Assembly (NCBI RefSeq): GCF_000005825.2
Contig: NC_013791.2
Coordinates: 930,001-994,000 of the forward strand
Reading direction: 5' to 3'
Source of the DNA: Alkalihalophilus pseudofirmus OF4
GTDB taxonomy: Bacteria; Bacillota; Bacilli; Bacillales; Bacillaceae_D
DNA length: 64,000 bases
The notes under the pieces were generated by a model. The model saw nothing but the letters and a program-made list of their open reading frames with translations. It did no database searches and had not been told where the DNA came from. Each line of letters starts with the position of its first letter. Position 1 is the first letter of the stretch. This document shows, piece after piece, positions 14,148 through 33,238 of this stretch. A program made the position numbers and the translations under genes.

Positions 14148-14240
14148 GCTTAATTTTAAGTTTTTTTATTTTTGTTTTAATTTTGTTGCACCTACAAGAA
14201 CGCATCTATTTTATTTGCAACTTAAATATTTTATAGTATA

Positions 14241-14254: not shown

Positions 14255-14312
14255 AAGTGATTGTTTAGGTGAGGGTAGTATTTTAGTAAAGAGATGAAAG
14301 GGTGACTTGTCT

Positions 14313-15773: not shown

Positions 15774-15795
15774 GCAAAATAATTCATAAAAGAGG

Positions 15796-15834
15796 TGCAC
15801 TTCAAAGGGTTTAACCTGTGAAGTGCATTTTTTT
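15796..15834 (+). terminator. terminator between aldehyde dehydrogenase and Rieske genes
   Basis: TGCACTTCA and TGAAGTGCA form a perfect 9-bp stem with a 14-nt loop followed by seven T. It ends only 15 nt before the Rieske alpha-subunit start, so those genes rely on read-through, or this is a conditional attenuator. Confidence 0.8.
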
Positions 15835-15849
15835 GAAGGAGGACATTTA

Positions 15850-17202
15850 ATGATTAAACGGGAAATTGACTCAAAACTAGTTCAGCAATTAAAAGATAAA
15901 ATGAAAGAAGGACTATTGCCGCAATGGGTTATTACAGACCCAGATATTTATGAACTTGAGCGAGAGAGAATATTCGGAAAAACTTGGCAGTTTCTATGTC
16001 ATGAAACTGAGTTAAAAGAGGCGGGATCTTTTGTAACGAGGTGGATGGTTAACGATCCTGTATTAATTGTAAAAGATCGAAAAGAGAAGATCAAAGCTTA
16101 CCTAAATTCATGTACTCACCGTGGAACGCAACTATGTACAGCTGATCGCGGAAAGAAAAAAACGTTTACCTGTCCTTACCATGGATGGAGTTACAATTTA
16201 GATGGAGAATTGGTTGGTATCGTTGCAGGGAATAAAGTATACGGTGAAGAGATGTGTAAAGATGAGTGGGGACTCCGTGAGATTCCACAAGTAGCAAGTT
16301 ACCGCGGTATGGTATTTGGATGTTTAGATCCACATGCTGAGCCACTAGAGGATTATTTAGGGGATATGAAATGGTATTTTGATTTAATGCTCGGAAGAAG
16401 TGATGATGGGATGGAAGTTATTGGGCTGCCTCAAAGGTGGATAGCAAAAGCAAACTGGAAATCAACTGCCGAAAACTTTGCTGCAGATCCATACCATGTT
16501 CAAACCACCCATAGATCAACGGTAGAAATGGGAATAAGCCCTGAAGATCCGTTATACGCTGGATATGGTCATCAAGTTGTAATGGATAATGCACATGGTA
16601 TTAATGTCATCACTTCAAAAACGGGCCGGTCTAGGGCAAAGTATCAAGGGATGCCTGAATCGATGTGGCCGATGTTTGAGAGGAATTTATCATCAGAACA
16701 AAGAGATATACTAGAGCGGGTTACAGTTTTTGTCGGTGGGGTTTACCCTAATCTTTCCTTCGTCAGCCCTATTCATGGAACAGAGGGGTATTTGCATAAT
16801 TATCTTAATTTCAGAGTGTGGAGACCGCTTGGGCCAGATAAAGTCGAAGTATGGTGCTGGTTCTTGATTGATAAAAATGCTCCCAAAGAATACAAGGATA
16901 ATGCTTATAAAGGCTATCTAGGGTCATTTGGACCAACAGGAACACTCGAGCAAGACGATACAGAGACTTGGGCTAGGATTGTTGAAGTCAGCGGGGCAAC
17001 GATGATGCGCAACAAAGAATTAAATTATAATAATGTTAGTAATTATTTAATGGGCTTTTCTAATGTAGAAGTTGATCATACCTTTACAGGTCCTGGGGTT
17101 GCTTACCCGACGACATATTGTGATGCCCTATCTAGAAGAATGCATGAACATTGGCTCGATTTACTGACTAAGCCAAGTCGTGTAGAGGAGGCAAGTCGAT
17201 GA
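15850..17202 (+). CDS. Rieske aromatic ring-hydroxylating oxygenase, alpha subunit
   Basis: A 450-residue catalytic subunit of a two-component-type ring-hydroxylating dioxygenase. The start at 15850 follows GAAGGAGGA; an earlier in-frame start at 15823 lies inside the terminator hairpin. The Rieske [2Fe-2S] ligands are C-x-H in SCTHRGTQL (about 88, 90) and C-x2-H in CPYHGWSY (about 108, 111). The mononuclear iron site has the pattern FAADPYHVQTTH (His about 216 and 221, bridging Asp about 213) and a later Asp. Such enzymes add O2 to benzoate-, naphthalene- or phenylpropionate-like rings. No ferredoxin or reductase gene is adjacent, so electrons must come from elsewhere. Substrate unassigned. 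Confidence 0.9.
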   Translation: MIKREIDSKLVQQLKDKMKEGLLPQWVITDPDIYELERERIFGKTWQFLCHETELKEAGSFVTRWMVNDPVLIVKDRKEKIKAYLNSCTHRGTQLCTADRGKKKTFTCPYHGWSYNLDGELVGIVAGNKVYGEEMCKDEWGLREIPQVASYRGMVFGCLDPHAEPLEDYLGDMKWYFDLMLGRSDDGMEVIGLPQRWIAKANWKSTAENFAADPYHVQTTHRSTVEMGISPEDPLYAGYGHQVVMDNAHGINVITSKTGRSRAKYQGMPESMWPMFERNLSSEQRDILERVTVFVGGVYPNLSFVSPIHGTEGYLHNYLNFRVWRPLGPDKVEVWCWFLIDKNAPKEYKDNAYKGYLGSFGPTGTLEQDDTETWARIVEVSGATMMRNKELNYNNVSNYLMGFSNVEVDHTFTGPGVAYPTTYCDALSRRMHEHWLDLLTKPSRVEEASR

Positions 17203-17723
17203 GTATTAAAAAGCATTCAGAAGTGCCATTAGATATCAAAGATCAAATTATAAGTCTCCTATACCAAGAAGCGCATTACTTAGATAACCGTATGTACAAA
17301 GAGTGGATTGAACTCTTAGCAGAAGATGTGACTTATAAAATGCCGTTAAGAGAAACAGTTGAAGGGGTAAACATAAATAATATATCATCTGATTCTGCTT
17401 ATTTTGAGGAGACTAAAGCCTCTTTGCGAACACGTGTAAATCGTTTATATACTAAATCTGCCTGGGTAGAAAATCCAGCTACAAGGCAGCGGCATTTTAT
17501 TTCCAATGTAGTTATACATCAAGGTGAAAAAAAGGGTGAGTATAACGTCCGCAGCTATTTCCTTTTTAAAAGAAGCAGGGGATCAACAACAGATATTGAA
17601 GAAATGTTCGGTGAGAGGCATGATGTAATCACTAAAATGGAAGGTGAATGGAGAATCATTTCTAGAACGATTATTCCTGATCAAACAGTCATGACAACTA
17701 TGAATATGAGCATGTTTCTATAA
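17199..17723 (+). CDS. aromatic ring-hydroxylating dioxygenase, beta subunit
   Basis: A 174-residue small subunit (SnoaL/NTF2-like fold) of the oxygenase. Typical features are the N-terminal helix with LLYQEAHYLDNRMYKEWIEL, the ARQRH-like segment NPATRQRHFISNV and the C-terminal strand RIISRTIIPDQ. It overlaps the alpha-subunit stop by 4 nt (ATGA), so the two are made together as an alpha3beta3 complex, as in the family. It is the last gene before a strong terminator. Confidence 0.9.
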   Translation: MSIKKHSEVPLDIKDQIISLLYQEAHYLDNRMYKEWIELLAEDVTYKMPLRETVEGVNINNISSDSAYFEETKASLRTRVNRLYTKSAWVENPATRQRHFISNVVIHQGEKKGEYNVRSYFLFKRSRGSTTDIEEMFGERHDVITKMEGEWRIISRTIIPDQTVMTTMNMSMFL

Positions 17724-18999: not shown

Positions 19000-19782
19000 T
19001 TATGCTTTAGTTTTATTGAAAGAAAGATTTTCTATAGTGCTGGCTGCTCTCTTTACCAATGTACATAGGGAGTCCAATTTTAATTGAGTTATTCTTGAAG
19101 TAGGACCGGCAATACTTACTGAAGCATTTACGATTCCTTGCCCGCTTTTTATAGGTGCTGCAATCGAAGTTACGCCTTTATGCATTTCTTCATGACTGAC
19201 TGCATATCCTTGTTTTTTTATAGTAGATAATTGTTGCTTAAGGATCTTGGGATTTGTAATCGTATATTCTGTATAGCGTGTGAGGTCTTGGTTAACGATG
19301 CAATCTATTTTAGCTTTACTTTGAAACGCAAGAATTACCTGTCCAGAACTTGTGCAATGGATGGGGTTTTGTCTGCCTGCATGAGAAAGCAGATGAACGG
19401 GGTGCTCTGAGTCAATTTTATATAGGTAAACGACCTTATTACCTTTTAATATGGCGATATGGGCAGTTTCTCCAGTAGTTTCTGTTAAGTTCTCTAATAT
19501 AGGGACGGCTGTCTGGTAGAGTTTATATTTAGCTAGAAAGAGGTTGCCCATTGATAGAATAGATGAAGCTGGTCTGAAACATTTTGATATAGGATCTTTA
19601 ACTAAGAAGCCATTATTCATTAGAGTATGAACTAGTCTGTGGGCAGTACTTGTCGCTACGTTTAATCTTTCAGCAATCTCTGATAAGTTAAGTTCTGGTT
19701 CATCTAAACTAAATAAATTCAATAAACGTAAAGCGTTTCTAAACGATGAATAAGAATGATTATTTAAAGCCTTATATCTCAT
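19000..19782 (-). CDS. IclR-family transcriptional regulator (paralog 1)
   Basis: An IclR regulator, about 260 residues. The start is taken at 19782 because AGGGGGAGG lies 4 nt before that ATG; a further in-frame ATG at 19800 overlaps the preceding gene. The winged helix is at about 15-75 (NLSEIAERLNVATSTAHRLV) and the GAF-like effector domain at 80-255, with SCHEEM-like region AVSHEEMHKGVTSIAAP. It lies directly downstream of a second IclR gene and upstream of the CynX-like gene. Likely controls aromatic uptake or catabolism; effector unknown. Confidence 0.88.
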   Translation of the reverse strand: MRYKALNNHSYSSFRNALRLLNLFSLDEPELNLSEIAERLNVATSTAHRLVHTLMNNGFLVKDPISKCFRPASSILSMGNLFLAKYKLYQTAVPILENLTETTGETAHIAILKGNKVVYLYKIDSEHPVHLLSHAGRQNPIHCTSSGQVILAFQSKAKIDCIVNQDLTRYTEYTITNPKILKQQLSTIKKQGYAVSHEEMHKGVTSIAAPIKSGQGIVNASVSIAGPTSRITQLKLDSLCTLVKRAASTIENLSFNKTKA

Positions 19783-19796
19783 ATTCCTCCCCCTAC

Positions 19797-20561
19797 TCAT
19801 GAAAAAGTTAGAAAACCTAATTTATCAGAAATTTCATTACTTGCTAGACTAACTTCTCTAATGTAATCGTCAAACTTAATTTGTTTCATCCGATAGAGTG
19901 GGCCTACAATACTCACAGCTGCAATTACTTCTCCAGTAAAATCTCTGACAGGGGCTGCTATACTCACCACTTCATCGAACATTTCATTTACACAAATCGC
20001 GTATCCTTGTTTTTTTATCTCTTTAAGCTGATTTAGTAAAATTTGTTTGTCTGTTACGCTCTTTGGACCGCATTTTACGAGTTCGTAATGGAGGATTTTA
20101 TTAAGCACTTGATCATTTTGATAAGCAAGAATGACTTTCCCAGAACTAGTACAGGTTGCTGGGTTTGTTTTTCCAATAGAAGATAAGAGTTCAATAGGCT
20201 GGCTACATTCAACCTTATGTAAATAAGTGATGTTTGAGTCTTCTAAAATTGAAATATGGGCAGTTTCGTTTACTTTTGCTGCTAAAGTTTCAAGTGCTGG
20301 TTTAGCTTCACTATAAATATCAGAATGGGATGTAATAACTCCGCTCAAACAAAGAACAGAGACTCCTAATTGATATTTCTTACCGTTTTTTTCTAAAAAA
20401 CCTTCCTCTACCAACTCACTTACAAGACGGCTAACGGTACTTTTACTCAAGGACAATTCTTCTGATATTTCTGTTACTCCCCAAGTGGACTTTTCAGTTG
20501 AAAATAGATGCAAAATCATAAGACCGTTATGAACAGATTGCAGAGACTTTTTTGTTTTCAT
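19797..20561 (-). CDS. IclR-family transcriptional regulator (paralog 2)
   Basis: A 254-residue IclR regulator. Helix-turn-helix at about 15-70 (GVTEISEELSLSKSTVSRLV), then the effector domain ending VVSIAAPVRDFTGEVIAAVS. It is divergent from pobA across a 135-bp spacer that holds a cre box, so it is the prime candidate regulator of pobA; IclR-type PobR proteins are known for such genes. It is followed by the next IclR gene with a 14-nt gap. It resembles the IclR protein at 22886-23668 more than the one at 19000. Confidence 0.9.
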   Translation of the reverse strand: MKTKKSLQSVHNGLMILHLFSTEKSTWGVTEISEELSLSKSTVSRLVSELVEEGFLEKNGKKYQLGVSVLCLSGVITSHSDIYSEAKPALETLAAKVNETAHISILEDSNITYLHKVECSQPIELLSSIGKTNPATCTSSGKVILAYQNDQVLNKILHYELVKCGPKSVTDKQILLNQLKEIKKQGYAICVNEMFDEVVSIAAPVRDFTGEVIAAVSIVGPLYRMKQIKFDDYIREVSLASNEISDKLGFLTFS

Positions 20562-20596: not shown

Positions 20597-20613
20597 GTTT
20601 CACATAAAAGAAA
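20597..20613. promoter_or_regulatory. degenerate IclR-type half-palindrome before pobA
   Basis: GTTT-N9-GAAA has the same arm spacing as the GTTC-N9-GAAC palindromes found elsewhere in this window. It lies midway between the divergent IclR gene and pobA. The arms are weaker, so this is only a candidate. Confidence 0.35.
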
Positions 20614-20662
20614 AAACACATTTTTTTCTGAACATTCTTATAATAACATTTTAATTAAGAAA

Positions 20663-20681: not shown

Positions 20682-21896
<1,215 letters not shown>

Positions 21897-21928: not shown

Positions 21929-21933
21929 CATTC

Positions 21934-22869
21934 TTATTTAAGGAGGGATTCACCTCCCTTAGCAAATGCTCTTTCAGGAGGCCATGCACTTAAGTCGAAA
22001 GGGTAATCGGATCCTGGAACAATACGGTCTTCGCCAACCATTTTTGCTAGATATTCAAGCGCCGTAGGGTTCCAAAGCACACTATCATACCAAAAGTCTT
22101 TTAAGTATTCAGTTGGTTTTTTCTTAAGTACATTTGAAACAAGAGGCCACTGTTCATACCCTTTATCAAGACGTCCGATTTGATAAGGGAGCAGGCCGCC
22201 TCCATGTGCTAGGAGAATTTTAACTTGGTCATATTGATCAAGAATACCACTTAATAAAAGGTCAGTTGCAGCGATCGTTGTTTCCCAAGGAACACCGATT
22301 AAATTAGGCATCATTCGCTGCTTCAAGCGTGGATCTTCACAGAGTAGTGGGTGAATAAATAGAATGGCTTTTTGATAATTGGCCTCTTCAAAAAAAGGAG
22401 CAAAGCTTGGATCAGACAATAATTTACCGTCCAATCCTGGACCAATAATAGCCCCTTTCAAACCTGAATTCATAGCTTCACGTAAGTTCTGTGCAGCTAG
22501 TCCAGGATGATTAAGAGAAACGGTAGCTAAGCCAGAGAGACCTTCAGGACTGGATTTACACCATTTTGCCAGAGAATAATTGTAAACGGTTGCAAGTTCA
22601 CTCGTCAACTCTGCCGAGAAGTCGTACAAAAACAGTTGAGGTATAGGAGACACAACTGCATGAGTAACACCAATCTTTTCTTTTTCTGCAAGGTAGAGGT
22701 CAGCATCAACAAATTCCCTTTTTAATTCGAAGGCCCATTTATCATTAATTGATAAAAACGCTTCTTTTTCAGGGTTCTTCCTAAGCCATTGAGCATTAAC
22801 AGTTTTCTGATTGTCTGTTATCCAAGTTAATACATCTTCAGGTATGAAATGAGTGTGAAAATCATGCAT
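21934..22869 (-). CDS. praH: amidohydrolase-family decarboxylase, PraH-like (5-carboxy-2-hydroxymuconate-6-semialdehyde decarboxylase)
   Basis: A 311-residue metal-dependent decarboxylase of the ACMSD family. Metal ligands are visible as His-x-His at residues 5 and 7 (HDFHTHF), His in LFIHPL, His in LLAHGGGLLPYQIGRLD and Asp in VPGSDYPFDL. In the protocatechuate 2,3-cleavage pathway, PraH removes the ring carboxyl from 5-carboxy-2-hydroxymuconate-6-semialdehyde to give 2-hydroxymuconate-6-semialdehyde, and no other decarboxylase of this class is present, so this is the natural candidate. Here it is transcribed opposite to the rest of the pathway, 16 nt downstream of the IclR regulator gene. 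Confidence 0.82.
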   Translation of the reverse strand: MHDFHTHFIPEDVLTWITDNQKTVNAQWLRKNPEKEAFLSINDKWAFELKREFVDADLYLAEKEKIGVTHAVVSPIPQLFLYDFSAELTSELATVYNYSLAKWCKSSPEGLSGLATVSLNHPGLAAQNLREAMNSGLKGAIIGPGLDGKLLSDPSFAPFFEEANYQKAILFIHPLLCEDPRLKQRMMPNLIGVPWETTIAATDLLLSGILDQYDQVKILLAHGGGLLPYQIGRLDKGYEQWPLVSNVLKKKPTEYLKDFWYDSVLWNPTALEYLAKMVGEDRIVPGSDYPFDLSAWPPERAFAKGGESLLK

Positions 22870-22885
22870 ACAATCAACTCCTTAA

Positions 22886-23668
22886 TTAGTAGTATCCTCG
22901 GTAACCTAACCTTGCCGATATTTGTTTGCCAGCGTCAATTACTTTTTTTATATGGGAAGGGATTGTGTGCTGATTTAAGCGCTGAATAGGGCCGACTATA
23001 TTAACAGAAGCAATAACATTTCCAGTGTAATCGCGTACTGGCGATGCAATAGAGACAACCCCTTCAAAAATCTCTTCACTGCTCACTGCATAGCCTGATT
23101 GACGGATTTCATCAAGTGTTTCTTTTAATTTCTGAGGATCCGTTATTGTGTACTCAGTAAAAGGCTCTAAACCGTTTTCAATTATTTTATCTACAAAATG
23201 GACATCATTGTAGGCTAACAAAATCTTTCCAGAGCTTGTCGCATAAGAGGGATTTCGTTTTCCGATATGTGTGAAAGCCCGAACATGATGTTTACTCTCT
23301 ACTTTATGTAGATAAATAACATCTAAGCCATCAAGGATCGAAAGGTGAGATGTTTCACCGGTTTTTTCTACAAGATCATTCAGAACTGGCATAGCCTCTT
23401 TATGAATTTCAAAATTAGATGTACACACACTTGCTAGAGAAAGGATTGATAATCCTAAACGATAGCGTTGATTTTCAGGATTCTTCTCCACAAACCCTTC
23501 ACTAGCTAAAGTAGACATAAGGCGGCTGACTGTACTTTTACCAAGTTCTAGGTCTTTTGCTAGATCGGTAATTTTGAGTTCGGGTTCATCCATAGAAAAT
23601 CTTCGTAAAATTCGTAAGGCATTTTTTACCGAGGATAATGTGTAGTCTTTTTTAGCGGTATTTGACAT
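22886..23668 (-). CDS. IclR-family regulator of the pra genes, PraR-like (paralog 3)
   Basis: A 260-residue IclR regulator with the helix-turn-helix at about 20-75 (KITDLAKDLELGKSTVSRLM) and an effector domain ending VVSIASPVRDYTGNVIASVN. It is divergent from praB, and a praR gene of the IclR family represses the pra operon in Paenibacillus JJ-1b, so this is the likely PraR. Two GTTC-N9-GAAC palindromes flank the intergenic region, one next to its own ribosome site. It is probably cotranscribed with the praH-like gene. Confidence 0.9.
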   Translation of the reverse strand: MSNTAKKDYTLSSVKNALRILRRFSMDEPELKITDLAKDLELGKSTVSRLMSTLASEGFVEKNPENQRYRLGLSILSLASVCTSNFEIHKEAMPVLNDLVEKTGETSHLSILDGLDVIYLHKVESKHHVRAFTHIGKRNPSYATSSGKILLAYNDVHFVDKIIENGLEPFTEYTITDPQKLKETLDEIRQSGYAVSSEEIFEGVVSIASPVRDYTGNVIASVNIVGPIQRLNQHTIPSHIKKVIDAGKQISARLGYRGYY

Positions 23669-23680
23669 AAAAACCTCCTT

Positions 23681-23699
23681 TGTTCTTCATATAGGAACA
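23681..23699. promoter_or_regulatory. IclR-type operator palindrome 1 (praR side)
   Basis: TGTTC-N9-GAACA is a perfect 5-bp dyad starting 12 nt upstream of the IclR start codon. It fits autoregulation. Confidence 0.65.
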
Positions 23700-23785
23700 T
23701 AGTTCTTTTATAAAATGTAAATTCACTATATCATAACGTTTAATAAAATTGAATAATCAAAAAATTAAATAAAAAAATTTAATAT

Positions 23786-23804
23786 TGTTCCATATGAAAG
23801 AACT
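23786..23804. promoter_or_regulatory. IclR-type operator palindrome 2 (praB side)
   Basis: TGTTC-N9-GAACT, with a 4-bp perfect core GTTC/GAAC and the same 9-bp spacing as palindrome 1. It lies 76 nt before praB. Confidence 0.65.
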
Positions 23805-23879
23805 ATGATGTTTTATAAGGTACAAAAACTGAGTATGCTTAAAATATAAAACGATCTTAATTTACTGGAGGAATATATT

Positions 23880-25343
23880 ATGAAAACAGTTACTACTGCT
23901 ACTGGTATTGATTGCAAGCACTTTATCAATGGTCGCTACATGGATTCGATTAATAACAAAACATTTTCAAATACAAACCCTGCGACTGAGGATGTATTAG
24001 GTACAGTTGCTGAAGGTGGAAAAGAAGAAATTAACCTTGCCGTCACATCAGCAAGAAGAGCGCTGAATGGACGTTGGAAAACGATGCCTCTGACTGAACG
24101 TTCTCAAATTTTACGCAAAGTAGGGGATCTGATCTTAGAAAGAAAAGATGAACTTGCACGTCTAGAATCATTAGATACAGGAAAGCCCATTTGGTTATCA
24201 AGCTCAATAGATATTCCTCGTGCAGCTTATAATTTTCATTTCTTTGCAGATTACATGACGACAATGGGGACAGAAGCATATCAGCATGATGACCTTGCTA
24301 TTAACTATTCTGTTCGTAAGCCAGTTGGAGTTGTAGGGCTGATCAATCCATGGAATCTTCCTTTATTATTATTAACTTGGAAACTTGCACCATGTCTTGC
24401 TGCAGGAAATACAGCGGTAATGAAGCCAGCTGAGTGGACACCTATGACGGCTACGATTCTAGCGGAAATTTGTAAAGAGGCAGGAGTTCCAGACGGTGTG
24501 GTGAATGTAGTACATGGATTTGGACCGGATTCCGCAGGTGCTGCACTAACTGAACATCCTGATGTAGATGCAATTACATTTACTGGTGAAACGTCCACTG
24601 GAACAGCAATTATGAAAGCGGCTGCCAATTCTCTTAAGAAGCTTTCATATGAACTTGGCGGGAAAAATCCCAATATAATTTTTGCAGATTCAGATCTAGA
24701 TGAAGTGTTAGAAACAACAATTAAATCTAGCTTTATTAATCAAGGTCAAGTGTGTTTATGTGGATCAAGAATTTATGTGGAAAGACCGGCTTACGATGAA
24801 TTTGTAGAGAAATTTGTGGCAAAAACGAAGGAATTGGTAATCGGTGATCCTTTTGATGAAAAAACAAAAGTGGGTGCAATGATCGGAAAAGAACATTATG
24901 AACGTGTTCTTAGCTATTTAGATCTTGCCCGTGAAGAAGGCGGAAAAATAGAAATTGGTGGAGGAAGACCTGAAGGATTTGATAAAGGGTATTTCATTCA
25001 ACCAACGATCATCACAGGTCTTGACCGTAATACTAGGTGTGTACGGGAAGAAATCTTTGGTCCTGTTGTAACAGTTATCCCATTTGATCTTGAAGATGAA
25101 GTTGTTGCACAAGTGAATGAATCTCATTACGGATTAAGTGCTTCCATTTGGACGAATGACTTGCGACGGGCTCACAGAGTAGCAAATGAAATTGAGGCGG
25201 GTATTATTTGGGTTAATACATGGTTTTTAAGAGACTTGCGTACACCATTTGGCGGAATGAAGCAAAGTGGGATCGGCCGTGAAGGCGGCATGCATAGTTT
25301 TGAGTTTTACAGTGAATTAAAAAATATATGTATCAAACTTTAA
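23880..25343 (+). CDS. praB: 2-hydroxymuconate-6-semialdehyde dehydrogenase
   Basis: A 487-residue aldehyde dehydrogenase converting 2-hydroxymuconate semialdehyde to 2-hydroxymuconate with NAD. Catalytic Glu lies in SYELGGKNPNI and nucleophilic Cys in INQGQVCLCGSR (about 290). The NAD site includes ITFTGETSTGTAIM. The Arg-rich LRDLRTPFGGMKQSG near the end and IWVNTWFLRDL are typical of the HMSDH clade (DmpC, XylG, PraB). It leads the seven-gene operon and has a good ribosome site (GGAGG). Identity as HMSDH is backed by all the following genes of the meta pathway. Confidence 0.92.
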   Translation: MKTVTTATGIDCKHFINGRYMDSINNKTFSNTNPATEDVLGTVAEGGKEEINLAVTSARRALNGRWKTMPLTERSQILRKVGDLILERKDELARLESLDTGKPIWLSSSIDIPRAAYNFHFFADYMTTMGTEAYQHDDLAINYSVRKPVGVVGLINPWNLPLLLLTWKLAPCLAAGNTAVMKPAEWTPMTATILAEICKEAGVPDGVVNVVHGFGPDSAGAALTEHPDVDAITFTGETSTGTAIMKAAANSLKKLSYELGGKNPNIIFADSDLDEVLETTIKSSFINQGQVCLCGSRIYVERPAYDEFVEKFVAKTKELVIGDPFDEKTKVGAMIGKEHYERVLSYLDLAREEGGKIEIGGGRPEGFDKGYFIQPTIITGLDRNTRCVREEIFGPVVTVIPFDLEDEVVAQVNESHYGLSASIWTNDLRRAHRVANEIEAGIIWVNTWFLRDLRTPFGGMKQSGIGREGGMHSFEFYSELKNICIKL

Positions 25344-25355
25344 GGAGGCTTCTTG

Positions 25356-26135
25356 ATGAGTTCAACAGTCGAATATGCTAACCAATTGCTTCAAGCTGAG
25401 AAAAATAGAGCAGGGATTGCTGCCTTAACCGAGCAGAACCCATCATTTTCAACAGAAGATGCTTATGCTGTTCAATTAGAGATTATCAAACAAAAAACAG
25501 AAAATGGGCAGACGATTGTTGGTAAAAAAATTGGCCTGACATCAGTGGCGATGCAAAAGCTATTAGGGGTAGATGAGCCTGATTACGGCCATCTCTTAAA
25601 TGAGATGGTTGTAGAGAATGGGGGCGAGCTTTCATTTGGGAAAGTAATGCAGCCAAAAGTTGAGGGTGAAATTGCTTTTATTTTAAAAGAAGACCTTAAA
25701 GGACCTAACGTCACTGCTCTTGATGTAGTTCTAGCTACTGATTATGTACTCCCCGCCTTAGAAATTGTTGATAGCAGAGTGAAAGATTGGAAGATTAAAT
25801 TACAAGATACAATTGCGGATAATGCCTCATGCGGACAATACGTTTTAGGCGGTAAACCAGTTACTCTCGATCAAGTAGACCTTTCACAGCTTGGTATGGT
25901 GTTAATGAAAAATGGTGAAATCGTTAATACGGGAGTAGGAGCTGCTGTCATGGGTCATCCGGCAAATTGTGTAGCTTGGCTGGCGAATAAATTAAGTGAA
26001 TATGATATTTCTTTAAAAGCTGGAGAAGTGATTTTATCTGGAGCATTATCCGCAGCTGTAAATGCGGAACCAGGAGATACTTTTACAGCTAAATTAGCCC
26101 ATTTAGGTGAAGTTTCAATAAGCTTCTCTTCCTAA
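25356..26135 (+). CDS. praE: 2-oxopent-4-enoate (2-hydroxypenta-2,4-dienoate) hydratase
   Basis: A 259-residue member of the MhpD/DmpE hydratase family (FAA-hydrolase fold). I chose the ATG at 25356, 8 nt after AAGGAGG. It is told apart from its decarboxylase paralog downstream by GKKIGLTSVAMQKLLGVDEP, the QPKVEGEIAFIL segment and VDSRVKDWKIKLQDTIADNASC, which match MhpD. Acidic metal ligands lie in VEGEIAF and the LEIVDSR stretch. It adds water to 2-hydroxypenta-2,4-dienoate to make 4-hydroxy-2-oxovalerate. Confidence 0.9.
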   Translation: MSSTVEYANQLLQAEKNRAGIAALTEQNPSFSTEDAYAVQLEIIKQKTENGQTIVGKKIGLTSVAMQKLLGVDEPDYGHLLNEMVVENGGELSFGKVMQPKVEGEIAFILKEDLKGPNVTALDVVLATDYVLPALEIVDSRVKDWKIKLQDTIADNASCGQYVLGGKPVTLDQVDLSQLGMVLMKNGEIVNTGVGAAVMGHPANCVAWLANKLSEYDISLKAGEVILSGALSAAVNAEPGDTFTAKLAHLGEVSISFSS

Positions 26136-26156
26136 TTAACAGTAAAGGAGATTCAT

Positions 26157-27047
26157 ATGAGTAAAATAAATGTAGCGATTATAGGGACCGGTAATATAGG
26201 AACAGATTTAATGTTGAAATTAGAACGCTCAGACACATTAGAATTAAAAGCATTGATTGGAATTGATCCTGAATCAGATGGTGTTTTTCGTGCGATTGAA
26301 CGCGGTTACCAAACCTTTACGCACGGTTTAGAAGATTTCTTGCAATCTAATGGGGAGATGGCTGATATCTTTTTTGATGCGACATCAGCCAAAGCTCACG
26401 TTCGACATGCCAAATTATTAAAAGAAGCAGGCAAACAAGTACTAGACTTAACACCGGCTGCACGCGGGCCATTTGTTGTTCCCCCAGTTAATTTAGATTC
26501 AAATTTAGATGTGCCGAATATTAATCTAATTACATGCGGAGGTCAGGCAACAATTCCGATGGTTCATGCTGTAAATCGAATCTCGCCAGTTGAGTATGCT
26601 GAAATTGTAGCTACGATCTCTAGTAAAAGTGCGGGGCCGGGAACAAGAGCTAACATTGATGAATTTACCCAAACGACTAAGCGAGGGATTGAAGAAATTG
26701 GAGGGGCTAAACAAGGGAAGGCTATTATTATTTTAAATCCAGCAGAGCCTCCGATTTTAATGAGAGATACGGTATATGCGGTTGTTGAAGAAGGCAAGCT
26801 CAATAAAGAGAAAATAAAGGAATCTGTTAATCAAATGGTTACAAGTGTCCAATCATATGTGCCAGGTTACCGTTTGAGGTCTGAGCCGATATTTGAGGGA
26901 AATCGAGTAACAATCTTTTTAGAGGTAGAAGGAGCAGGTGATTATTTACCTGAATACTCTGGGAACTTAGATATTATGACTGCAGCAGCTGTAAAAGTGG
27001 CTGAAGAACTTGCTTTGAATAAACTTAATAATTCCGCTGTTCTATAA
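26157..27047 (+). CDS. mhpF: acetaldehyde dehydrogenase (acylating)
   Basis: A 296-residue CoA-acylating acetaldehyde dehydrogenase (MhpF/DmpF family). NAD-binding motif [13 protein letters not shown] at the N-terminus, catalytic Cys in [13 protein letters not shown] (about 127) and [15 protein letters not shown] are diagnostic. It forms a channelling complex with the aldolase encoded next, turning acetaldehyde into acetyl-CoA. In the praEGF naming it corresponds to one of praF or praG. Confidence 0.95.
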
Positions 27048-27119
27048 AATGATCCTTGGTACTGTAATCTATTAAATCGTCTTATGAAAGAACTCTTATT
27101 ATAGAAGGGAAAGGGTAAG

Positions 27120-28145
27120 ATGGCAAAGAATCGAGATCTCTATATAACAGAAGTTGCCTTGCGTGATGGAAGCCATGCGATCGGTCACCAATATACGGTT
27201 GAACAAGTAATGAGTGTAGCGCGTTCACTCGATCAAGCAGGGGTTCCATATATTGAAGTGGCACACGGAGACGGCTTAGGCGGTTCTTCTGAGCAATACG
27301 GACGCTCTAGAACAAATGAAATGAGTTTAATTGAAGCTGCTGCTTCAGTTTGTACTGATACTAAAATAGCCGTTTTATTAATACCAGGAATCGGTACAAA
27401 AAATGAATTAAAAGAAGCAGCTGAGCTTGGTGCAAAAATGGCGCGGGTTGCAACACATGTCACAGAAGCAGATGTTTCTCCTCAACATATTCAACTGGCA
27501 AAAGAATTAGGCTTGGAGACTGTTGGCTTTTTAATGATGTCACATATGGCGCCTGTTAACAAATTAGTTGAGCAAGCAAAACTAATGGAAAGCTATGGCG
27601 CTGATACGGTGTATGTGGTTGATTCAGCTGGTGCCTTTTTACCAAACGAGGTTCGTGAACGTATTAAAGCTCTTAGACAAAGTCTTTCTATTAATATTGG
27701 CTTTCATGCCCATAATAATTTGTCGCTTGCTATGGCTAATACGCTAGTAGCAATTGAAGAAGGGGCCACACGAATTGATGGTAGTGTGAGATGTTTAGGC
27801 GCTGGTGCTGGTAATACGCAAACTGAAGTGTTGGTGGCTATACTCGATCGCATGGGAATAAATACTGGTATTGATTTATATGAGATGATGGATTTAGCAG
27901 AAAATATTGTAGCCCCAATCTTGCCAAAGCCCCAAGAAATTACTAGAGACAGTCTAGTGATGGGGTATGCAGGGGTCTATTCTAGCTTTTTATTACACGC
28001 CCAAAGAGCAGCTAAGCATTTTCACCTTGATGCTCGTGATATTTTAATTGAACTCGGGAAAAGAAAAGTCGTTGGCGGTCAAGAGGATATGATTTTAGAT
28101 GTAGCAGCAGAAATTGCTAATAAACAAAAAAGCCTTAAGGTTTGA
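27120..28145 (+). CDS. mhpE: 4-hydroxy-2-oxovalerate aldolase
   Basis: A 341-residue class II pyruvate aldolase (DmpG/MhpE, HMGL-like barrel). The N-terminal metal-site motif is VALRDGSHAIGHQYT, with the metal-ligand pair in GFHAHNNLSLA; the C-terminal DmpG communication domain starts about residue 270. It splits 4-hydroxy-2-oxovalerate into pyruvate and acetaldehyde. The 72-nt gap before it is the largest inside the operon and includes a TTATGAAAGAACTCTT element that resembles one arm of the IclR palindromes. Confidence 0.95.
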   Translation: MAKNRDLYITEVALRDGSHAIGHQYTVEQVMSVARSLDQAGVPYIEVAHGDGLGGSSEQYGRSRTNEMSLIEAAASVCTDTKIAVLLIPGIGTKNELKEAAELGAKMARVATHVTEADVSPQHIQLAKELGLETVGFLMMSHMAPVNKLVEQAKLMESYGADTVYVVDSAGAFLPNEVRERIKALRQSLSINIGFHAHNNLSLAMANTLVAIEEGATRIDGSVRCLGAGAGNTQTEVLVAILDRMGINTGIDLYEMMDLAENIVAPILPKPQEITRDSLVMGYAGVYSSFLLHAQRAAKHFHLDARDILIELGKRKVVGGQEDMILDVAAEIANKQKSLKV

Positions 28146-28157
28146 TAGGGGGAGCAT

Positions 28158-28946
28158 ATGAGCACGATTTCGAATAAAGAGATAGCCAGGTTTTTATTAG
28201 ATGCTGAATTAGAGAGAAAAGATGTTGTCAGAATTACGTCTGATAAAGTCCCTAACCTTAATGTAGAAGATGCTTATTTAATTCAAGAAGAACTAGTGAA
28301 GCTAAAGTTAAAGGAAGGTCACTCTATCGTTGGTCCTAAAATGGGATTAACTAGTCTGGCTAAGATGAAGCAAATGAATGTAGAAGAGCCTATTTACGGT
28401 TATATCTTTGATAATATGGTTGTTCCAGATGGTGGCACGATATCTCTTTCTGACTTTATTCATCCCAAAGTAGAGGCTGAAGTTGCTTTTATTTTAGGAA
28501 AAGATATTGAAGGGCCATCTATATCGGGTGCACAAGTATTAGCTGCAACAGAGTATGTTTGCCCAGCGCTTGAAATTATTGATAGTCGTTATGAGAACTT
28601 TAACTTTACTCTGCCTGATGTTATTGCCGACAATGCTTCTTCTTCAAAGGTTGTTTTTGGAAATACGGTTCGTAAACCAGAAGAGCTTGATCTTGAACTT
28701 ATCGGGACAGTTTTATCTATCAATGGTGAGATCAAAGATTTAGGAGCGGGGGCTGCTGTATTAGGTCATCCAGCTAATTCAGTTGCGATGCTTGCAAACA
28801 TGCTTCACCGTAAAGGGGAAAAGCTAACGGCTGGTCAAGTGATTTTAACAGGCGGAATCACGGGGGCGGTTCACCTTTCATATGGCGATTACGTATCAGC
28901 TAAACTTGATGGCCTAGGTGAAGTCCATTTTTCGGTAGGAGAATAA
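28158..28946 (+). CDS. praD: 4-oxalocrotonate decarboxylase
   Basis: A 262-residue paralog of the hydratase, but of the XylI/DmpH decarboxylase type: GPKMGLTSLAKMKQMNVEEP, IYGYIFDNMVVPDGG and EIIDSRYENFNFTLPDVIAD match that clade. It decarboxylates 2-oxo-3-hexenedioate to 2-hydroxypenta-2,4-dienoate, in a complex with the hydratase in known systems. It follows the aldolase gene by 12 nt with a GGGGGAG ribosome site. Confidence 0.92.
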   Translation: MSTISNKEIARFLLDAELERKDVVRITSDKVPNLNVEDAYLIQEELVKLKLKEGHSIVGPKMGLTSLAKMKQMNVEEPIYGYIFDNMVVPDGGTISLSDFIHPKVEAEVAFILGKDIEGPSISGAQVLAATEYVCPALEIIDSRYENFNFTLPDVIADNASSSKVVFGNTVRKPEELDLELIGTVLSINGEIKDLGAGAAVLGHPANSVAMLANMLHRKGEKLTAGQVILTGGITGAVHLSYGDYVSAKLDGLGEVHFSVGE

Positions 28947-28965
28947 GTTAATAAAGGAGCCATTT

Positions 28966-29163
28966 ATGCCAATTATAAATGTAAATATGATGGAAGGTAG
29001 ACCTAAGGAAAAAGTAGAACAAGTTATAGCGGATGTCACGGAGACGGTCGCGAATACTCTTGAAGTGCCAAAAGAAACAGTTAGAGTACTAGTTACAGAG
29101 ATCCCTAAATCTCACTGGGGTATTGCTGGAGAATCAGCTGAAAAGAGAAATGCCGCTAGATAG
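28966..29163 (+). CDS. praC: 4-oxalocrotonate tautomerase
   Basis: A 65-residue tautomerase. After Met removal the catalytic Pro-1 is exposed (MPIINVNMMEG), and the Arg of KETVRVLVTEIPKSHWGIAG is in the family position. It isomerises 2-hydroxymuconate to 2-oxo-3-hexenedioate. Ribosome site AAGGAG, 20 nt after praD. Confidence 0.93.
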   Translation: MPIINVNMMEGRPKEKVEQVIADVTETVANTLEVPKETVRVLVTEIPKSHWGIAGESAEKRNAAR

Positions 29164-29200
29164 TGGTCAACTACTGAATTAGTGAAAAGGAGGTATTCGG

Positions 29201-30025
29201 ATGACGATAGAGTTAGGTGTTTTAGCTGCTCATGTTCCTAGTATTTGTCATAGAGAAAATGTACCTGAGTTCCAATGGGATATTGTAAAGAAATTAGACG
29301 ATATTTCGGGTCAGATTAAAGAGCTGAAGCCTGATGCTGTTGTAATTGTTTCCTGTCATTGGCAGTCTACGTTTCATCACTATGTGGATGTATCACCACA
29401 ACATCAAGGCATCCTGACCGCTTTTGAATGCCCTGATATTATTTCTGATGTGGCCTATGAATATCCAGGGGATCAAGAACTTGGTGAAGCCTTAGTCTTA
29501 GCTGGAAAACAAGCTCGTCTTCCAGTTATTGCGGTTAACGATCCTACATATGTGTGGGATTATGGTACAGTAGTACCGCTCCGATATCTCGTACCTAATA
29601 GAGATATTCCTGTAGTGAACTTATCGATAACAATGGCTGCAGGTCTCGATGAAACCTATAAATGGGGCGAAGTAATAGGAGAGACATTAAATCAATCGGA
29701 TAAACGCTATGTGTTTGTGTTTAGTGGAGCTCTTGCTCATAACTTGGTACGAGGACGTCATCATATGCCTACTGTATCTGAGCAGGCTCTAGATAAGCAG
29801 TTTATCGACTATGTGATGAATCGAGATATGGACCTTGCAAAAGAAATGCTCCCTCAGTATGCGAAAGTTGCAGGAGTTGAGGGAGGGGGACGTCATTTAG
29901 CAATGATGCTAGGGGCGTTAAAAGGTAAGTTCAAGCCAGCTTTTTTAAGTTATGCTCAGTCATCGGGAAGCGGGAATGCCGTTATGACTTTTAAAAATGA
30001 GGAAAAATTACAAGGAAGTATATAA
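29201..30025 (+). CDS. praA: protocatechuate 2,3-dioxygenase, type III extradiol (LigB superfamily)
   Basis: A 274-residue class III extradiol dioxygenase. Candidate Fe(II) ligands and acid-base residues are His in LAAHVPSICHREN (about 11) and in VIVSCHWQSTFHHY (about 53), plus His in SGALAHNLVRGRHH and the conserved acidic residues of the fold. No LigA-like alpha subunit is encoded, in keeping with single-subunit PraA. It opens the protocatechuate ring between C2 and C3. Its position at the end of the operon, after decarboxylase and tautomerase genes, and pobA nearby support protocatechuate as substrate. Confidence 0.85.
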   Translation: MTIELGVLAAHVPSICHRENVPEFQWDIVKKLDDISGQIKELKPDAVVIVSCHWQSTFHHYVDVSPQHQGILTAFECPDIISDVAYEYPGDQELGEALVLAGKQARLPVIAVNDPTYVWDYGTVVPLRYLVPNRDIPVVNLSITMAAGLDETYKWGEVIGETLNQSDKRYVFVFSGALAHNLVRGRHHMPTVSEQALDKQFIDYVMNRDMDLAKEMLPQYAKVAGVEGGGRHLAMMLGALKGKFKPAFLSYAQSSGSGNAVMTFKNEEKLQGSI

Positions 30026-30039
30026 TCATTTGTATTTTA

Positions 30040-30073
30040 AAAACGATTGCGCCATCGCAGCAGTCGTTTTTTT
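30040..30073 (+). terminator. terminator of the pra operon
   Basis: AAAACGATTGC / GCAGTCGTTTT, an 11-bp stem with one G-T pair followed by a T run. Confidence 0.85.
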
Positions 30074-30119
30074 GTCTGTAAAAAACACATTTTTCAGATT
30101 TATTAGATTTCTTTGATAA

Positions 30120-30138
30120 CGTTCTCTATAGAGGAACG
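30120..30138. promoter_or_regulatory. IclR-type operator palindrome 3 (second TRAP operon)
   Basis: CGTTC-N9-GAACG, a perfect 5-bp dyad, with the same 9-bp spacing as the two palindromes beside praR and praB. It lies about 170 bp before dctP copy 2. Confidence 0.65.
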
Positions 30139-30209
30139 AAGGGATTGTATTAACAACAAAGCTAAATTAGTATAAATGTACTAATAAAGAAGTTGTCTTC
30201 CAGGTAATA

Positions 30210-30223
30210 TGAAAGCGGATTCA
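30210..30223 (+). promoter_or_regulatory. cre site before the second TRAP operon
   Basis: TGAAAGCGGATTCA matches TGWAANCGNTNWCA at 13 of 14 positions (A at position 10). It lies in the 280-bp leader of dctP copy 2. Confidence 0.65.
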
Positions 30224-30305: not shown

Positions 30306-31421
30306 ATGGTGAAAGTGAAATCAATTTCAATTGGTAAGTGTTTTATCACATTGCTTCTAGTCACATTTATGCTCATGGTTGTTGGGTGCTCAAATGAAAC
30401 GGTCACTAATGAGGTTGAAGCAGACACAGGTGCAGAAGTAGAAGAAACAGATGGAGAAGCGGCCCCTTCTGCTGGTAATTCAGTAGAACTGCGCATTTCA
30501 CACTTTGTTTCTCCGCAGCACGGTCAACATACAAAAGTATTTGAACCATTTAGCGAAGAAGTCGCTGAGTTAACAGAGGGGCGTGTTACAGCTTCCATTT
30601 ATCCAGGTGCGGCTTTAGGAGCACCAACTGCTCAATATGATATGGCGACTACAGGAGTTGCAGATATTACGTATGCTATTCAAGGTTATACACCAGGGAA
30701 GTTCCCACTTAGTTCAGTGGTTGAGTTGCCATTTGTTGCTGAGAATGCTGAAAAAGCTACAAGTATTCTCTGGGATCTTTATAACGAGTTTCCTGAGATT
30801 CAAGAAGAATATAAAGAAAATAAAGTACTGTGGTTGTTTGGAATTGATAACGATCAGATCTTAACGACCAATAAAGAAATTAAGACTGTTGAAGACTTAC
30901 GCGGCCTGAAAATATCAACACCATCTCCTGCATCGAATGCAGTGGTTGAGGCTTGGGGAGCTATTCCGGTGTTTATGCCAATGAATGAAGTATATGAAGC
31001 TATGCAAAGAGGAATTGTTGACGGTCGTCTTGGACCATATTCTGCAGTAGCAAATTTTAAATTGAATGAAGTAACCGGATATATTACAGAAGGTGACTTT
31101 TATACAACAAACTTTGCTATTACGATGAATAAGCAGGCTTGGGAAAGTTTATCTGAAGCTGATCAAGAGGCGATTAACGGTTTACTGGATAAATACAGAG
31201 ACTTAGCAGCAGCAGTATATTCAGAGGATGCTGAACTAGGAAAGAAAGCAGCACTTGATTCCGGAGTTGAAGTTACAGAATTAAGTGAAGATGTGAAAGC
31301 AGAATTTAAAGAAGCTCTCGATCCAATTCATGAAGCGTGGGTTCAAGAAATGGATGGCGATGGGCTTCCTGGTTTACAAGTGTATGAAGAAGCTATGCGT
31401 TTAAGTGATCAATACGAATAG
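30306..31421 (+). CDS. dctP: TRAP transporter substrate-binding lipoprotein DctP (copy 2)
   Basis: A 371-residue TRAP receptor with signal peptide and lipobox MVVGC (Cys about 28), then a linker rich in Glu, Thr and Ala. The DctP signature region is LKISTPSPASNAVVEAWGAI; note that the residue before STP is Ile-Ser rather than the Arg-containing IRTP of copy 1, so the carboxylate-binding Arg may be displaced and the ligand may differ. It lies between the pra operon and the lactate operon. An IclR-type palindrome and a cre box precede it, which suggests it takes up 4-hydroxybenzoate, protocatechuate or a precursor (inference). Confidence 0.88.
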   Translation: MVKVKSISIGKCFITLLLVTFMLMVVGCSNETVTNEVEADTGAEVEETDGEAAPSAGNSVELRISHFVSPQHGQHTKVFEPFSEEVAELTEGRVTASIYPGAALGAPTAQYDMATTGVADITYAIQGYTPGKFPLSSVVELPFVAENAEKATSILWDLYNEFPEIQEEYKENKVLWLFGIDNDQILTTNKEIKTVEDLRGLKISTPSPASNAVVEAWGAIPVFMPMNEVYEAMQRGIVDGRLGPYSAVANFKLNEVTGYITEGDFYTTNFAITMNKQAWESLSEADQEAINGLLDKYRDLAAAVYSEDAELGKKAALDSGVEVTELSEDVKAEFKEALDPIHEAWVQEMDGDGLPGLQVYEEAMRLSDQYE

Positions 31422-31434
31422 AGGAGGACTTAAA

Positions 31435-31941
31435 TTGTTTAGCAAGGTCATTCATGGTTTAGAAAGAGTCGTACATCCTCTAAATGCAATTGCTCATCGT
31501 GTTGCCATGTTGGTCCTTTTTCTTATGATGCTGATTACCTTTATAGACGTATCGGGGCGAATGTTCTCAAAGCCCCTTTACGGTGCTTTTGAGTTAACTG
31601 GCTTTGGTTTGGCTTTATTGATCTTCTATAGTCTTGGTTATACCCAATTAAAAAAAGGCCATATAACTGTAAGCTTTTTAGTAGATAAATGGCCTAAAAG
31701 AGCCCAGGCAGCGGCCGACATCATTACTCATTTAATATTTTTAACACTAGTAAGTGTGACTACATGGCAAGTCGTACAACAAGCTGTAAGATTATTTAAT
31801 GGAAATGATAAGACAGCCGACTTAGGAATCCCCATTTATATCATTGCTACGATGGCCAGTATCGGTCTCTTCTTTTTTGCCTTGGCCTTACTATTAGAGC
31901 TGTTAAAATCAGTGAACGAGGCGGTGAAAAGACATGAGTAA
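31435..31941 (+). CDS. dctQ: TRAP transporter small membrane subunit DctQ (copy 2)
   Basis: A 168-residue, four-helix DctQ protein. The start is taken as TTG at 31435, 6 nt after AGAGGAGG; an ATG at 31405 lies inside dctP. Core motif TFIDVSGRMFSKPLYGAFEL and loop YTQLKKGHITVSFLVDKWP match copy 1. It overlaps dctM by 8 nt. Confidence 0.87.
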   Translation: MFSKVIHGLERVVHPLNAIAHRVAMLVLFLMMLITFIDVSGRMFSKPLYGAFELTGFGLALLIFYSLGYTQLKKGHITVSFLVDKWPKRAQAAADIITHLIFLTLVSVTTWQVVQQAVRLFNGNDKTADLGIPIYIIATMASIGLFFFALALLLELLKSVNEAVKRHE

Positions 31942-33238
31942 TGAGATCGTTGGAGTAATTGGAATAGGGATCTTATTAGTTCTAATCTTGCTTCGTGCAC
32001 CTGTCGGCTTATCATTATTATTAATTGGTTTTACTGGATATTCCTATTTAACAAGGTGGGATGTCGGTCTAGCTCAGCTGGGAATGCAAACCTTTAATGT
32101 AGCAAGTTCTTATGTGTTAAGTGTCATGCCCTTATTTATTTTAATGGGAATGATCTTATCCTATAGCGGTTTAGGAAAAGATTTATTTGACGGGGTTGAT
32201 CGATGGTTCGGTCATGTTCGGGGCGGTCTTGCTATGGCTACGATAGGGGCCAGTGCCATCTTTTCTGCTATTTCTGGTTCTGCAAATGCAACAACCGCAA
32301 CGGTGGCTAGAGTTACTTTACCTGAGATGAAGCGTTATGGTTATAACCCGGGTCTTGCTGCCTCCAGTGTAGCAGCAGGAGGAACATTAGGGATATTAAT
32401 ACCACCAAGTGTGGCACTCATTTTATATGGCGTTCTAACAATGGAGCCAATTGGTCCATTATTAATTGCCGGCCTGGTTCCTGGGATTCTTTGTATGATT
32501 GTTTTTATTTTAACAATTTATTTTCAAGTACGTAAGAATCCATTACTTGCCCCAAGGTCTTTAGCAAAGGCTTCTATGAGAGATCAGCTTAAATCACTCA
32601 TACCTATATGGCCGTTTTTTTTGATTTTCTTCATTAGCGTTGGGGGAATTTACTTTGGTATATTTACTCCGACAGAAGCGGCTGGTGTAGGTGCATTTTC
32701 AGCCTTTATATACACAGTTTTAACTAAAAGGTTGAACTGGAAAAAAATGAAAGAGGCATTTGATGAGAGTGCTAGACTGACCGCAATGATTTTTATTATT
32801 TTAATTGGAGCAAGTTTGTTTGGTAGCTTCTTAGCAATTACGAAAATTCCATCGACTCTCTCATCCCTAGTGGCAGGATTAGATGTTTCACCCTATGTAG
32901 TGTTGGCTATGATTCTAGGTCTCTATTTAATACTAGGCTTGTTTTTGGAAGGGATTGCTATTCAAGTCTTAACTCTGCCGATTGTTTATCCTCTAATTAT
33001 TAGCCTAGGGTTTGATGGTGTTTGGTTTGCTGTAATGATGGTAATGATGATCAATATTGGCTTGTTAACACCTCCTTTGGGTGTCCTTTGCTACATTATT
33101 CATGGAATAGATAAGACAATTCCACTCGAACAAATTTTTAAAAGTGTCATTCCTATGTTAATATCTATGATCCTAATAACAATTCTCTTTATTATCTTCC
33201 CGCAAATTATTACCTTCCTTCCTAATTTAATGCAATGA
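31934..33238 (+). CDS. dctM: TRAP transporter large membrane subunit DctM (copy 2)
   Basis: A 434-residue DctM permease with the same motifs as copy 1 (MPLFILMGMILSYSG, ISGSANATTATVARV, AAGGTLGILIPPSV). Strong similarity over the whole length to the protein at 12327-13634 shows the two TRAP systems arose by duplication or have a recent common origin. Closed by a strong terminator. Confidence 0.92.
   Translation: MSNEIVGVIGIGILLVLILLRAPVGLSLLLIGFTGYSYLTRWDVGLAQLGMQTFNVASSYVLSVMPLFILMGMILSYSGLGKDLFDGVDRWFGHVRGGLAMATIGASAIFSAISGSANATTATVARVTLPEMKRYGYNPGLAASSVAAGGTLGILIPPSVALILYGVLTMEPIGPLLIAGLVPGILCMIVFILTIYFQVRKNPLLAPRSLAKASMRDQLKSLIPIWPFFLIFFISVGGIYFGIFTPTEAAGVGAFSAFIYTVLTKRLNWKKMKEAFDESARLTAMIFIILIGASLFGSFLAITKIPSTLSSLVAGLDVSPYVVLAMILGLYLILGLFLEGIAIQVLTLPIVYPLIISLGFDGVWFAVMMVMMINIGLLTPPLGVLCYIIHGIDKTIPLEQIFKSVIPMLISMILITILFIIFPQIITFLPNLMQ

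Follow-up and report, generated by a model that had tools for sequence, protein, structure and literature searches.

From our analysis of 64,000 nucleotides of Alkalihalophilus pseudofirmus OF4 (contig NC_013791.2, positions 930,001 to 994,000; this whole stretch is called the window, and positions are counted from its first letter), we propose that regulators of one family, IclR, probably turn the digestion and the uptake of aromatic acids on together. A sequence-only reading of the window had picked out three GTTC-N9-GAAC palindromes, placed before an IclR gene (praR), before praB of the protocatechuate 2,3-cleavage (pra) genes and before the second operon for a tripartite ATP-independent periplasmic (TRAP) transporter, and had taken them to define a PraR regulon that links aromatic breakdown to that transporter. 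This idea appears to hold in a stronger, corrected form. Each palindrome, we judge likely, forms the first half of a 37-bp operator read by an IclR-family regulator, with PraR as the foremost candidate; such a regulon would belong to a known kind and be marked by an unusually rigid arrangement of operator and promoter and by an exchange of transporter families behind the operator.

De novo motif finding in the divergent praR regions of relatives, with the window left out, returned GTTgCaTATAgaaGAAC in 24 of 25 regions, weakly in one of the 24 (L102; L and G numbers denote loci and genomes). At width 21 the motif scored 293.5, against 72.2-80.1 in six shuffled controls (120 seeds for the real run, 60 for the controls). 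The 25 regions were drawn from 34; besides the window, those excluded had no praA, praB or praH running divergently within 400 bp. A 37-bp matrix and an alignment (A1) show this motif to be the first half of an operator of two 17-bp palindromes with centres 20 bp apart. Site extension gave the consensus GTTgCaTATAnAaGAAC nnn GnTgTTnTATanganAc, in which the second palindrome lies constantly 20 bp on; the usual form in relatives is GTT(G/T/C)C-N7-(A/G)(G/C)AAC-like, followed by the second palindrome at that distance. The matrix was built from relatives only, with 36 of 56 palindromes (L102, scores below 17 and second palindromes read in reverse were dropped). Its five best places in the window, S1 to S5 (Table 1), score 15.7-37.5; the next non-overlapping place scores -0.7, and the best in 4.25 Mb of order-2 Markov synthetic sequence 12.6. 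Trained without the window's own family, the matrix puts the same five sites on top (15.5-31.3, with 2.1 for the next place and 13.8 for the best of 20 synthetic windows), and the best of 281,756 coding positions in relatives reaches 9.1. The sequence-only reading had staked its PraR regulon, joining protocatechuate breakdown to a TRAP transporter, on conservation of the motif near the pra genes of relatives, and the 24 of 25 regions and the five top places found by a relatives-only matrix bear this expectation out.

A second, sequence-only model (R1), made from 58 of 76 matrix matches (those of at least 24), ranks S2, S1 and S3 first over the whole own genome, followed by a partial match at 764373 and then by S4. 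The genome-wide R1 searches scored 150 of 1,082-5,005 first-look candidates per genome (150 of 3154 in the own genome), and weak sites can escape. Other own-genome R1 matches (764373, 3406383, 2762554, 3734513, 291436 and 916012) reached matrix scores of -7.8 to 12.7 at best over the fetched loci; no score clearly exceeded the synthetic maximum, and these matches were not counted as sites. S1 is kept at the same place in L087 and L089-L092, and the second palindrome of S2 is identical in L089. S4 is kept before praI in L087 and L089-L092, and beside the IclR_b gene in the five own-family loci that carry the PraR paralogues IclR_a and IclR_b (L123-L126, L128); it belongs to a GAAA-ended subtype, and S1-S3 end in GAAC like the praR-praB class. 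This pobA site had earlier been called weak; it is in fact a full, conserved site, and IclR_b is at least as likely as PraR to read it. S5, a fifth site that had been missed, has a counterpart, GTTGCATCTATCAGAAC, before the aldehyde dehydrogenase gene ALDH1 in L124 (score 14.5) and a weaker one in L126 (8.7).

The operator follows the pra genes across genomes. Relatives with praA were found in 15 of 396 other genomes by the order search, 8 of 40 by the family search and 32 of 397 by the class search, and loci were fetched from 35 of these 55 genomes (15 of 15, 7 of 8 and 13 of 32, respectively). A leave-locus-out scan of the 35 loci gave 76 matches of at least 13 in 31 loci, 58 of them near a pra or praR-labelled gene. 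Over 32 whole genomes at E 0.05, R1 had matches in 15 of the 16 with praA against 2 of the 16 without, and these two were partial (19.3 and 16.9 bits; matrix best 0.9 and 7.0 over their loci). Since 13 of the 16 praA genomes gave training sites, the useful part is the contrast with the praA-lacking genomes, one of which is of the same species; among the three praA genomes that gave none, G402 has 7 R1 matches, G387 has one, away from its pra locus, and G106 has none. The same-species genome G400 and the genus members G117 and G329 gave no match for praA (E 1e-20), DctP2 (E 1e-60) or R1 (E 0.05), and the pra locus (19000-30025 of the window) therefore looks accessory or strain-specific. In G134 a praR-praB-E-G-F-D-C cluster with its own operator (38.8) sits on another contig (L138/L178), and praA, praH and another praR are in L039. 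A PraR search of genome contigs returned only two distant alphaproteobacterial loci (L016, L017) and was not used further.

Direct reading and a pattern search confirm the three palindromes, their equal arm spacing and their flanking bases (GTTCTTCATATAGGAAC at 23682-23698, GTTCCATATGAAAGAAC at 23787-23803, GTTCTCTATAGAGGAAC at 30121-30137), as well as the placement claimed for them, the first lying about 14 bp before the praR start and the third before dctP2. As a motif that defines the regulon, the exact letters GTTC-N9-GAAC are not diagnostic and were rejected. The bare string means little alone because it occurs at 41 places in the whole genome (4.25 Mb) against 63 for the reversed control, and only 7 of the 76 operator matches in relatives fit it. 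Of the two motif searches suggested with the original idea, that of the genome showed no enrichment of the bare string, and that of orthologous pra loci uncovered the larger operator. Within the window the string occurs 4 times against 0.75 expected (at least 4 in 2 of 100 shuffles); the fourth occurrence, at 380, had gone unmentioned, and it was rejected as an unrelated sequence with an operator matrix score of -39.7. Three matches within 6.5 kb have P ~4e-5 at genome density, for a stretch picked after the fact.

PraR has the helix-turn-helix and C-terminal domains of the IclR family, both above their Pfam cut-offs, and the operator is of a known IclR kind, because excerpts of the survey by Suvorova and Gelfand 2021 (PMC8222616) describe 17-bp GTT-11-AAC palindromes, over-represented in Firmicutes, with tandem sites 18-22 nt apart. 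Our operator has the 17-bp palindrome, the GTT and AAC ends, the W3 (A/T) centre of group 1 and, at 20 bp, the tandem spacing; DctPQM is likewise among the transporters of the surveyed regulogs. It deviates from the published consensus GTTYCRYW3RYGRAAC at position 4, which is mostly G, and at position 12, which is A, and the excerpts mention neither a fixed-distance -10 element nor a pra regulon. A third box with group 2 spacing, suggested by GGAAC-ATA-GTTC at S1, was tried as a general rule; it is not general elsewhere, and the tandem-palindrome reading took its place.

The layout of the promoters is unusually constant. We searched downstream of the operators for TAxxxT hexamers matching TATAAT at 4 or more positions, leaving out two of 81 matches that lie inside genes. 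Of 28 pra-operon sites, 25 have such a -10-like hexamer beginning 10 nt past the operator (other offsets there 0 to 5); the same holds for 7 of 7 praI sites, 7 of 17 praR-start sites and 13 of the 27 remaining sites. Because the sites share descent, the counts do not represent independent events. In the window, offset 10 is held, besides the praB hexamer (Table 1), by TATAGT (ALDH1), TAGTAT (TRAP) and TAACAT (pobA); for pobA, whose start is uncertain, offset 5 holds a perfect TATAAT as well. If the spacer is 17 nt long, the -35 element lies within the second palindrome; its letters, TTGTAT or TTTTAT, make a poor -35. The fixed -10 spacing and the poor -35 fit an activator bound at -35, and repression would also be possible. 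At S1 the role is less clear, since -10-like hexamers point both towards praB (TATCAT, offset 10) and towards praR (TATAGT).

We propose the following mechanism. With four half-sites, each operator would be expected to hold a pair of dimers or a tetramer of the regulator, the second palindrome covering the -35 of a sigma-A promoter, with the -10 starting 10 nt beyond the operator. PraR, whose ligand is probably protocatechuate or an intermediate of the pathway, would bind S2 and help RNA polymerase start the praB-A operon, and would act alike at S3 for the TRAP operon, whose transporter we infer to import an aromatic acid of the pathway. At S1, autoregulation is the simplest and most likely reading. 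S4 and S5 would extend the circuit to pobA and to the aldehyde dehydrogenase/Rieske operon, and the paralogue IclR_b probably reads S4. In 12 loci, the window included, two same-strand matches of at least 13 form an S1-S2-type pair, with centre distances of 105, 94, 94, 84, 105, 104, 105, 105, 104, 115, 115 and 111 bp; all but the last are within about 0.1 turn of whole 10.5-bp turns, which could point to DNA looping between S1 and S2. Because five of the loci are close kin of the window, and weaker or opposite-strand pairs are out of phase (100-101 bp in L040, L042 and L045; 110 bp on opposite strands in L037 and L039), looping is only a suggestion; L046 and L047 have opposite-strand operator pairs 159 and 161 bp apart.

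The claimed link between aromatic breakdown and a transporter is supported with a twist, as the operators of relatives precede a different DctP clade or genes of other transporter families. Ten DctPs of relatives form a pra-tied clade (support 83/88, modest). Eight of them have an operator upstream, scoring 8.4-29.8 (L037, L039, L041, L124, L126, L164, L171, L173), those of L037 and L041 being below 13 with intact first palindromes; the ninth (L035) lies 35 bp after praA and the tenth (L048) has no operator. Operators also precede long DctM proteins, probably fused TRAP permeases (L042, Pfam tested; L045, by similarity), MatC/CitMHS carriers (L040, and L042 through L175), TctC-TctA (L092), LivK-type ABC binding proteins (L043, L044) and an MFS gene (L099). 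With two TRAP DctPQM lineages counted, these would make up the exchanged set. We put forward tentatively, with somewhat less than even confidence, that the 37-bp operator and its fixed -10 act as a portable control unit, the pra enzymes staying constant while unrelated transporter families are swapped behind the operator between lineages. Other genes preceded by an operator encode a LigXa/VanA-like Rieske protein (L040, L042 tested), 2-oxoacid ferredoxin oxidoreductases (L156, L145, L169), a catechol 2,3-dioxygenase-like protein (L157) and an AMP-binding ligase (L160, L161).

A number of observations weigh against a single PraR circuit that activates enzymes and transporter together. Among the sites, S3 without the own family is just 1.7 above the best synthetic window, the second palindromes of S3 (3.6 bits) and S5 (1.7 bits) are weak, S4 has an R1 E of 0.47 in the own genome, and S5 has only 7.3 bits with R1. 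Among the relatives, L037, L088, L102 and L105 have no 37-bp match of at least 13 in the leave-locus-out scan; L106 lacks the motif in its motif-finding region and has only a 16.5 match inside the longest-frame call of its praR; and a sixth family locus, L127, has neither the IclR_a and IclR_b genes nor the site. The window's DctP2 is outside the clade of operator-linked DctPs, its nearest relative being the window's own DctP1, and its 78% orthologue in G411 belongs to an ALDH-DctPQM operon beside another IclR protein, 41% identical to PraR; this G411 operon sits behind an operator site scoring 21.5. Operators were not found before three pra-linked TRAP operons (L046, L047 and L048, the DctPs of the first two being outside the clade), before unrelated DctP genes in L091 and L098, before DctM-like genes in L088 and L089, or before dctP1 of the window. 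Some strong matches also stand before genes that have no evident part in aromatic metabolism; among these genes are one resembling threonine dehydratase (L095), one for a TIM barrel of AP-endonuclease type (L147) and one for a pyridine nucleotide oxidoreductase (L167). Finally, an operator lying over the -35 also fits repression.

Some of these points bear on who reads the operators. The same sites could be read wholly or partly by IclR_b and IclR_a, in two or three overlapping regulons, and not by PraR alone; we regard this as a real possibility, if a doubtful one. IclR_b has PraR's STVSRL helix region, S4 lies between IclR_b and pobA in a layout that recurs with the GAAA-ended subtype in the five family loci carrying both paralogues and is missing from L127, which lacks them, and the G411 ALDH-DctPQM2 operon adjoins a further IclR. 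Most order and class loci with praR-praB operators, however, show no close IclR_a or IclR_b copy in the fetched stretch (up to ~20 kb), and the GAAC end of S1-S3 is that of the praR-praB class. The second question is the sign of regulation. PraR might be a plain repressor that blocks RNA polymerase at -35 until its ligand releases it, with no need for activation; we hold this to be a possibility, though less likely than not. The coverage of -35 and the position of S1 at the praR start would suit it, and the IclR family includes repressors, activators and dual regulators (excerpts of PMC8222616), but the poor -35 and a -10 at one exact distance suit contact with the polymerase, and titles in the reference list of that paper describe PcaU and PobR as activators. 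That the three palindromes are chance matches, or unrelated to aromatic metabolism, would agree with the missing genome-wide enrichment of the bare pattern (41 against 63 in the reversed control); it seems to us exceedingly improbable given the conservation in relatives, which speaks against it for S1 and S2, the matrix and R1 rankings, and the near-absence of R1 matches from praA-lacking genomes.

The pra gene set (praA, B, C, D, E, F, G, H, I and R) is present together as judged by domains and order (Table 1). Within the praB-A operon only praG and praF reach curated equivalog cut-offs, and the gene order is kept in many relatives; praB, praD and praE are below their curated cut-offs and were named by domain and order, and praA by synteny and its LigB domain (HpaD model 119.8 against a cut-off of 315.95). 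Copies of praR 81-85% identical adjoin praB in five own-family loci. A PraR search of the own genome at E 1e-15 found, beyond the three IclR genes of the locus, one more with 30% identity. Since a terminator-like hairpin lies between praA and S3, the second TRAP operon is probably a transcription unit with its own promoter; the terminator scan as a whole gave matches no more than chance (4 against 4.3).

Table 1. Operators, promoter element and genes of the window. For S1-S5, matrix scores are followed in brackets by those obtained without the own family.
Feature	Position	Strand	Details
S5, before the aldehyde dehydrogenase/Rieske operon	14185..14221	+	GTTGCACCTACAAGAAC gca TCTATTTTATTTGCAAC; matrix 15.7 (17.3)
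Aldehyde dehydrogenase and Rieske dioxygenase alpha/beta subunits	14307..17723	+	behind S5
IclR_a	19000..19800	-	PraR paralogue (43%); STAHRL in place of STVSRL
IclR_b	19797..20561	-	PraR paralogue (45%); divergent from pobA; recognition-helix region KSTVSRL common with PraR
S4, between IclR_b and pobA/praI	20597..20633	+	GTTTCACATAAAAGAAA aaa CACATTTTTTTCTGAAC; first palindrome 20597-20613; matrix 17.3 (19.4); R1 13.5 bits
pobA/praI, 4-hydroxybenzoate 3-monooxygenase	20697..21896	+	TIGR02360 538.7 bits, exactly the cut-off of 538.7
praH, amidohydrolase-type decarboxylase candidate	21934..22869	-	PF04909; named by position; adjoins praR in many loci
praR, IclR-family regulator, 260 aa	22886..23668	-	PF01614 174.8 bits (cut-off 24); PF09339 50.5 (cut-off 22)
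S1, at the praR start	23682..23718	+	GTTCTTCATATAGGAAC ata GTTCTTTTATAAAATGT; matrix 28.3 (19.4); R1 21.5 bits, rank 2 in own genome
S2, before praB	23787..23823	+	GTTCCATATGAAAGAAC tat GATGTTTTATAAGGTAC; matrix 37.5 (31.3); R1 28.2 bits, E 1e-5, rank 1 in own genome
-10 hexamer TATGCT of praB	23834..23839	+	10 nt after S2; region kept in alignment A2
praB-E-G-F-D-C-A operon	23880..30025	+	dehydrogenase, hydratase, acylating aldehyde dehydrogenase, aldolase, decarboxylase, tautomerase, LigB-type dioxygenase
Terminator-like hairpin and T tract after praA	30039..30071	+	fold -15.6 kcal/mol; scan match 30047-30060
S3, before the second TRAP operon	30121..30157	+	GTTCTCTATAGAGGAAC gaa GGGATTGTATTAACAAC; matrix 20.3 (15.5, lowest of the five); R1 17.2 bits, E 0.03, next after S2 and S1 in own genome
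dctP2-dctQ2-dctM2 TRAP transporter (TRAP2)	30306..33238	+	dctP2 NF037995 117.1 bits (cut-off 50); dctM2 TIGR00786 327.9 (cut-off 268.45); dctQ2 by position

Several features of the neighbourhood are of additional note. Matches to WTGNAANCGNWNNCW, which we take to be the catabolite-responsive element (cre) motif, number 7 in the window (two being the same place on both strands) against 1.2 expected. Those at 14240-14254, 20663-20677 and 30209-30223 lie 18-51 nt downstream of S5, S4 and S3, which suggests that CcpA may control the same promoters as these operators; a similar AGCGTTT string stands beside praI in L087 and L089-L092. From 8898 to 15773 a TPP-dependent decarboxylase-like gene, DctP1Q1M1, a YjgF gene and an aldehyde dehydrogenase gene lie together, a similar TPP-DctPQM-ALDH-praI order being found in L127, and this cluster may perhaps form an aryl-glyoxylate route into 4-hydroxybenzoate. 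TctB, TctA and TctC with malate/lactate dehydrogenase-like and mandelate racemase-type genes occupy 2599-7801, and a lactate permease with Lut-type lactate oxidation genes (33458-38114) lies directly 3' of the TRAP operon.

Among the papers listed by our literature searches, none dealt with a PraR operator or a PraR-TRAP link, and the related systems known to us resemble ours in part. In Paenibacillus sp. JJ-1b, PraR is named the regulator of the pra genes (excerpts of PMC12455638); the pathway genes and the regulator's name are the same as here, but the cluster order is praRABEGFDCHI instead of praR<>praBEGFDCA, and the excerpted description contains neither an operator nor a TRAP operon. PcaU and PobR of Acinetobacter baylyi are likewise IclR-family regulators of 4-hydroxybenzoate/protocatechuate genes with multi-box operators (excerpts of PMC8222616). 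The operator letters of PcaU, TTTGTTCGATWATCGMACAMA, differ from those found here, and PraR falls outside the PcaR/PcaU/PobR subfamily TIGR02431 by score (183.8 bits against the curated cut-off of 284.75). TarPQM of Rhodopseudomonas palustris, a TRAP transporter for lignin-derived aromatic acids, lies beside catabolic genes (excerpts of PMC3610893), as TRAP2 does; the organism and the pathway are different, and the likeness drawn here is one of gene placement. Elsewhere, deletion of TRAP candidates caused no defect in protocatechuate uptake, according to excerpts of PMC13253662.

For protocatechuate 2,3-cleavage in Bacillus-like bacteria, a pathway that has received little study, our analysis provides an operator that is precise and can be tested, and a handle for locating uptake systems of lignin-derived acids. 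If our reading is true, the operator can be used to predict which transporters, from several unrelated families, are partners of this one pathway, and engineers of aromatic catabolism gain a ready promoter-operator part. If the unit is indeed portable, operators could locate aromatic-acid importers that sequence similarity misses.

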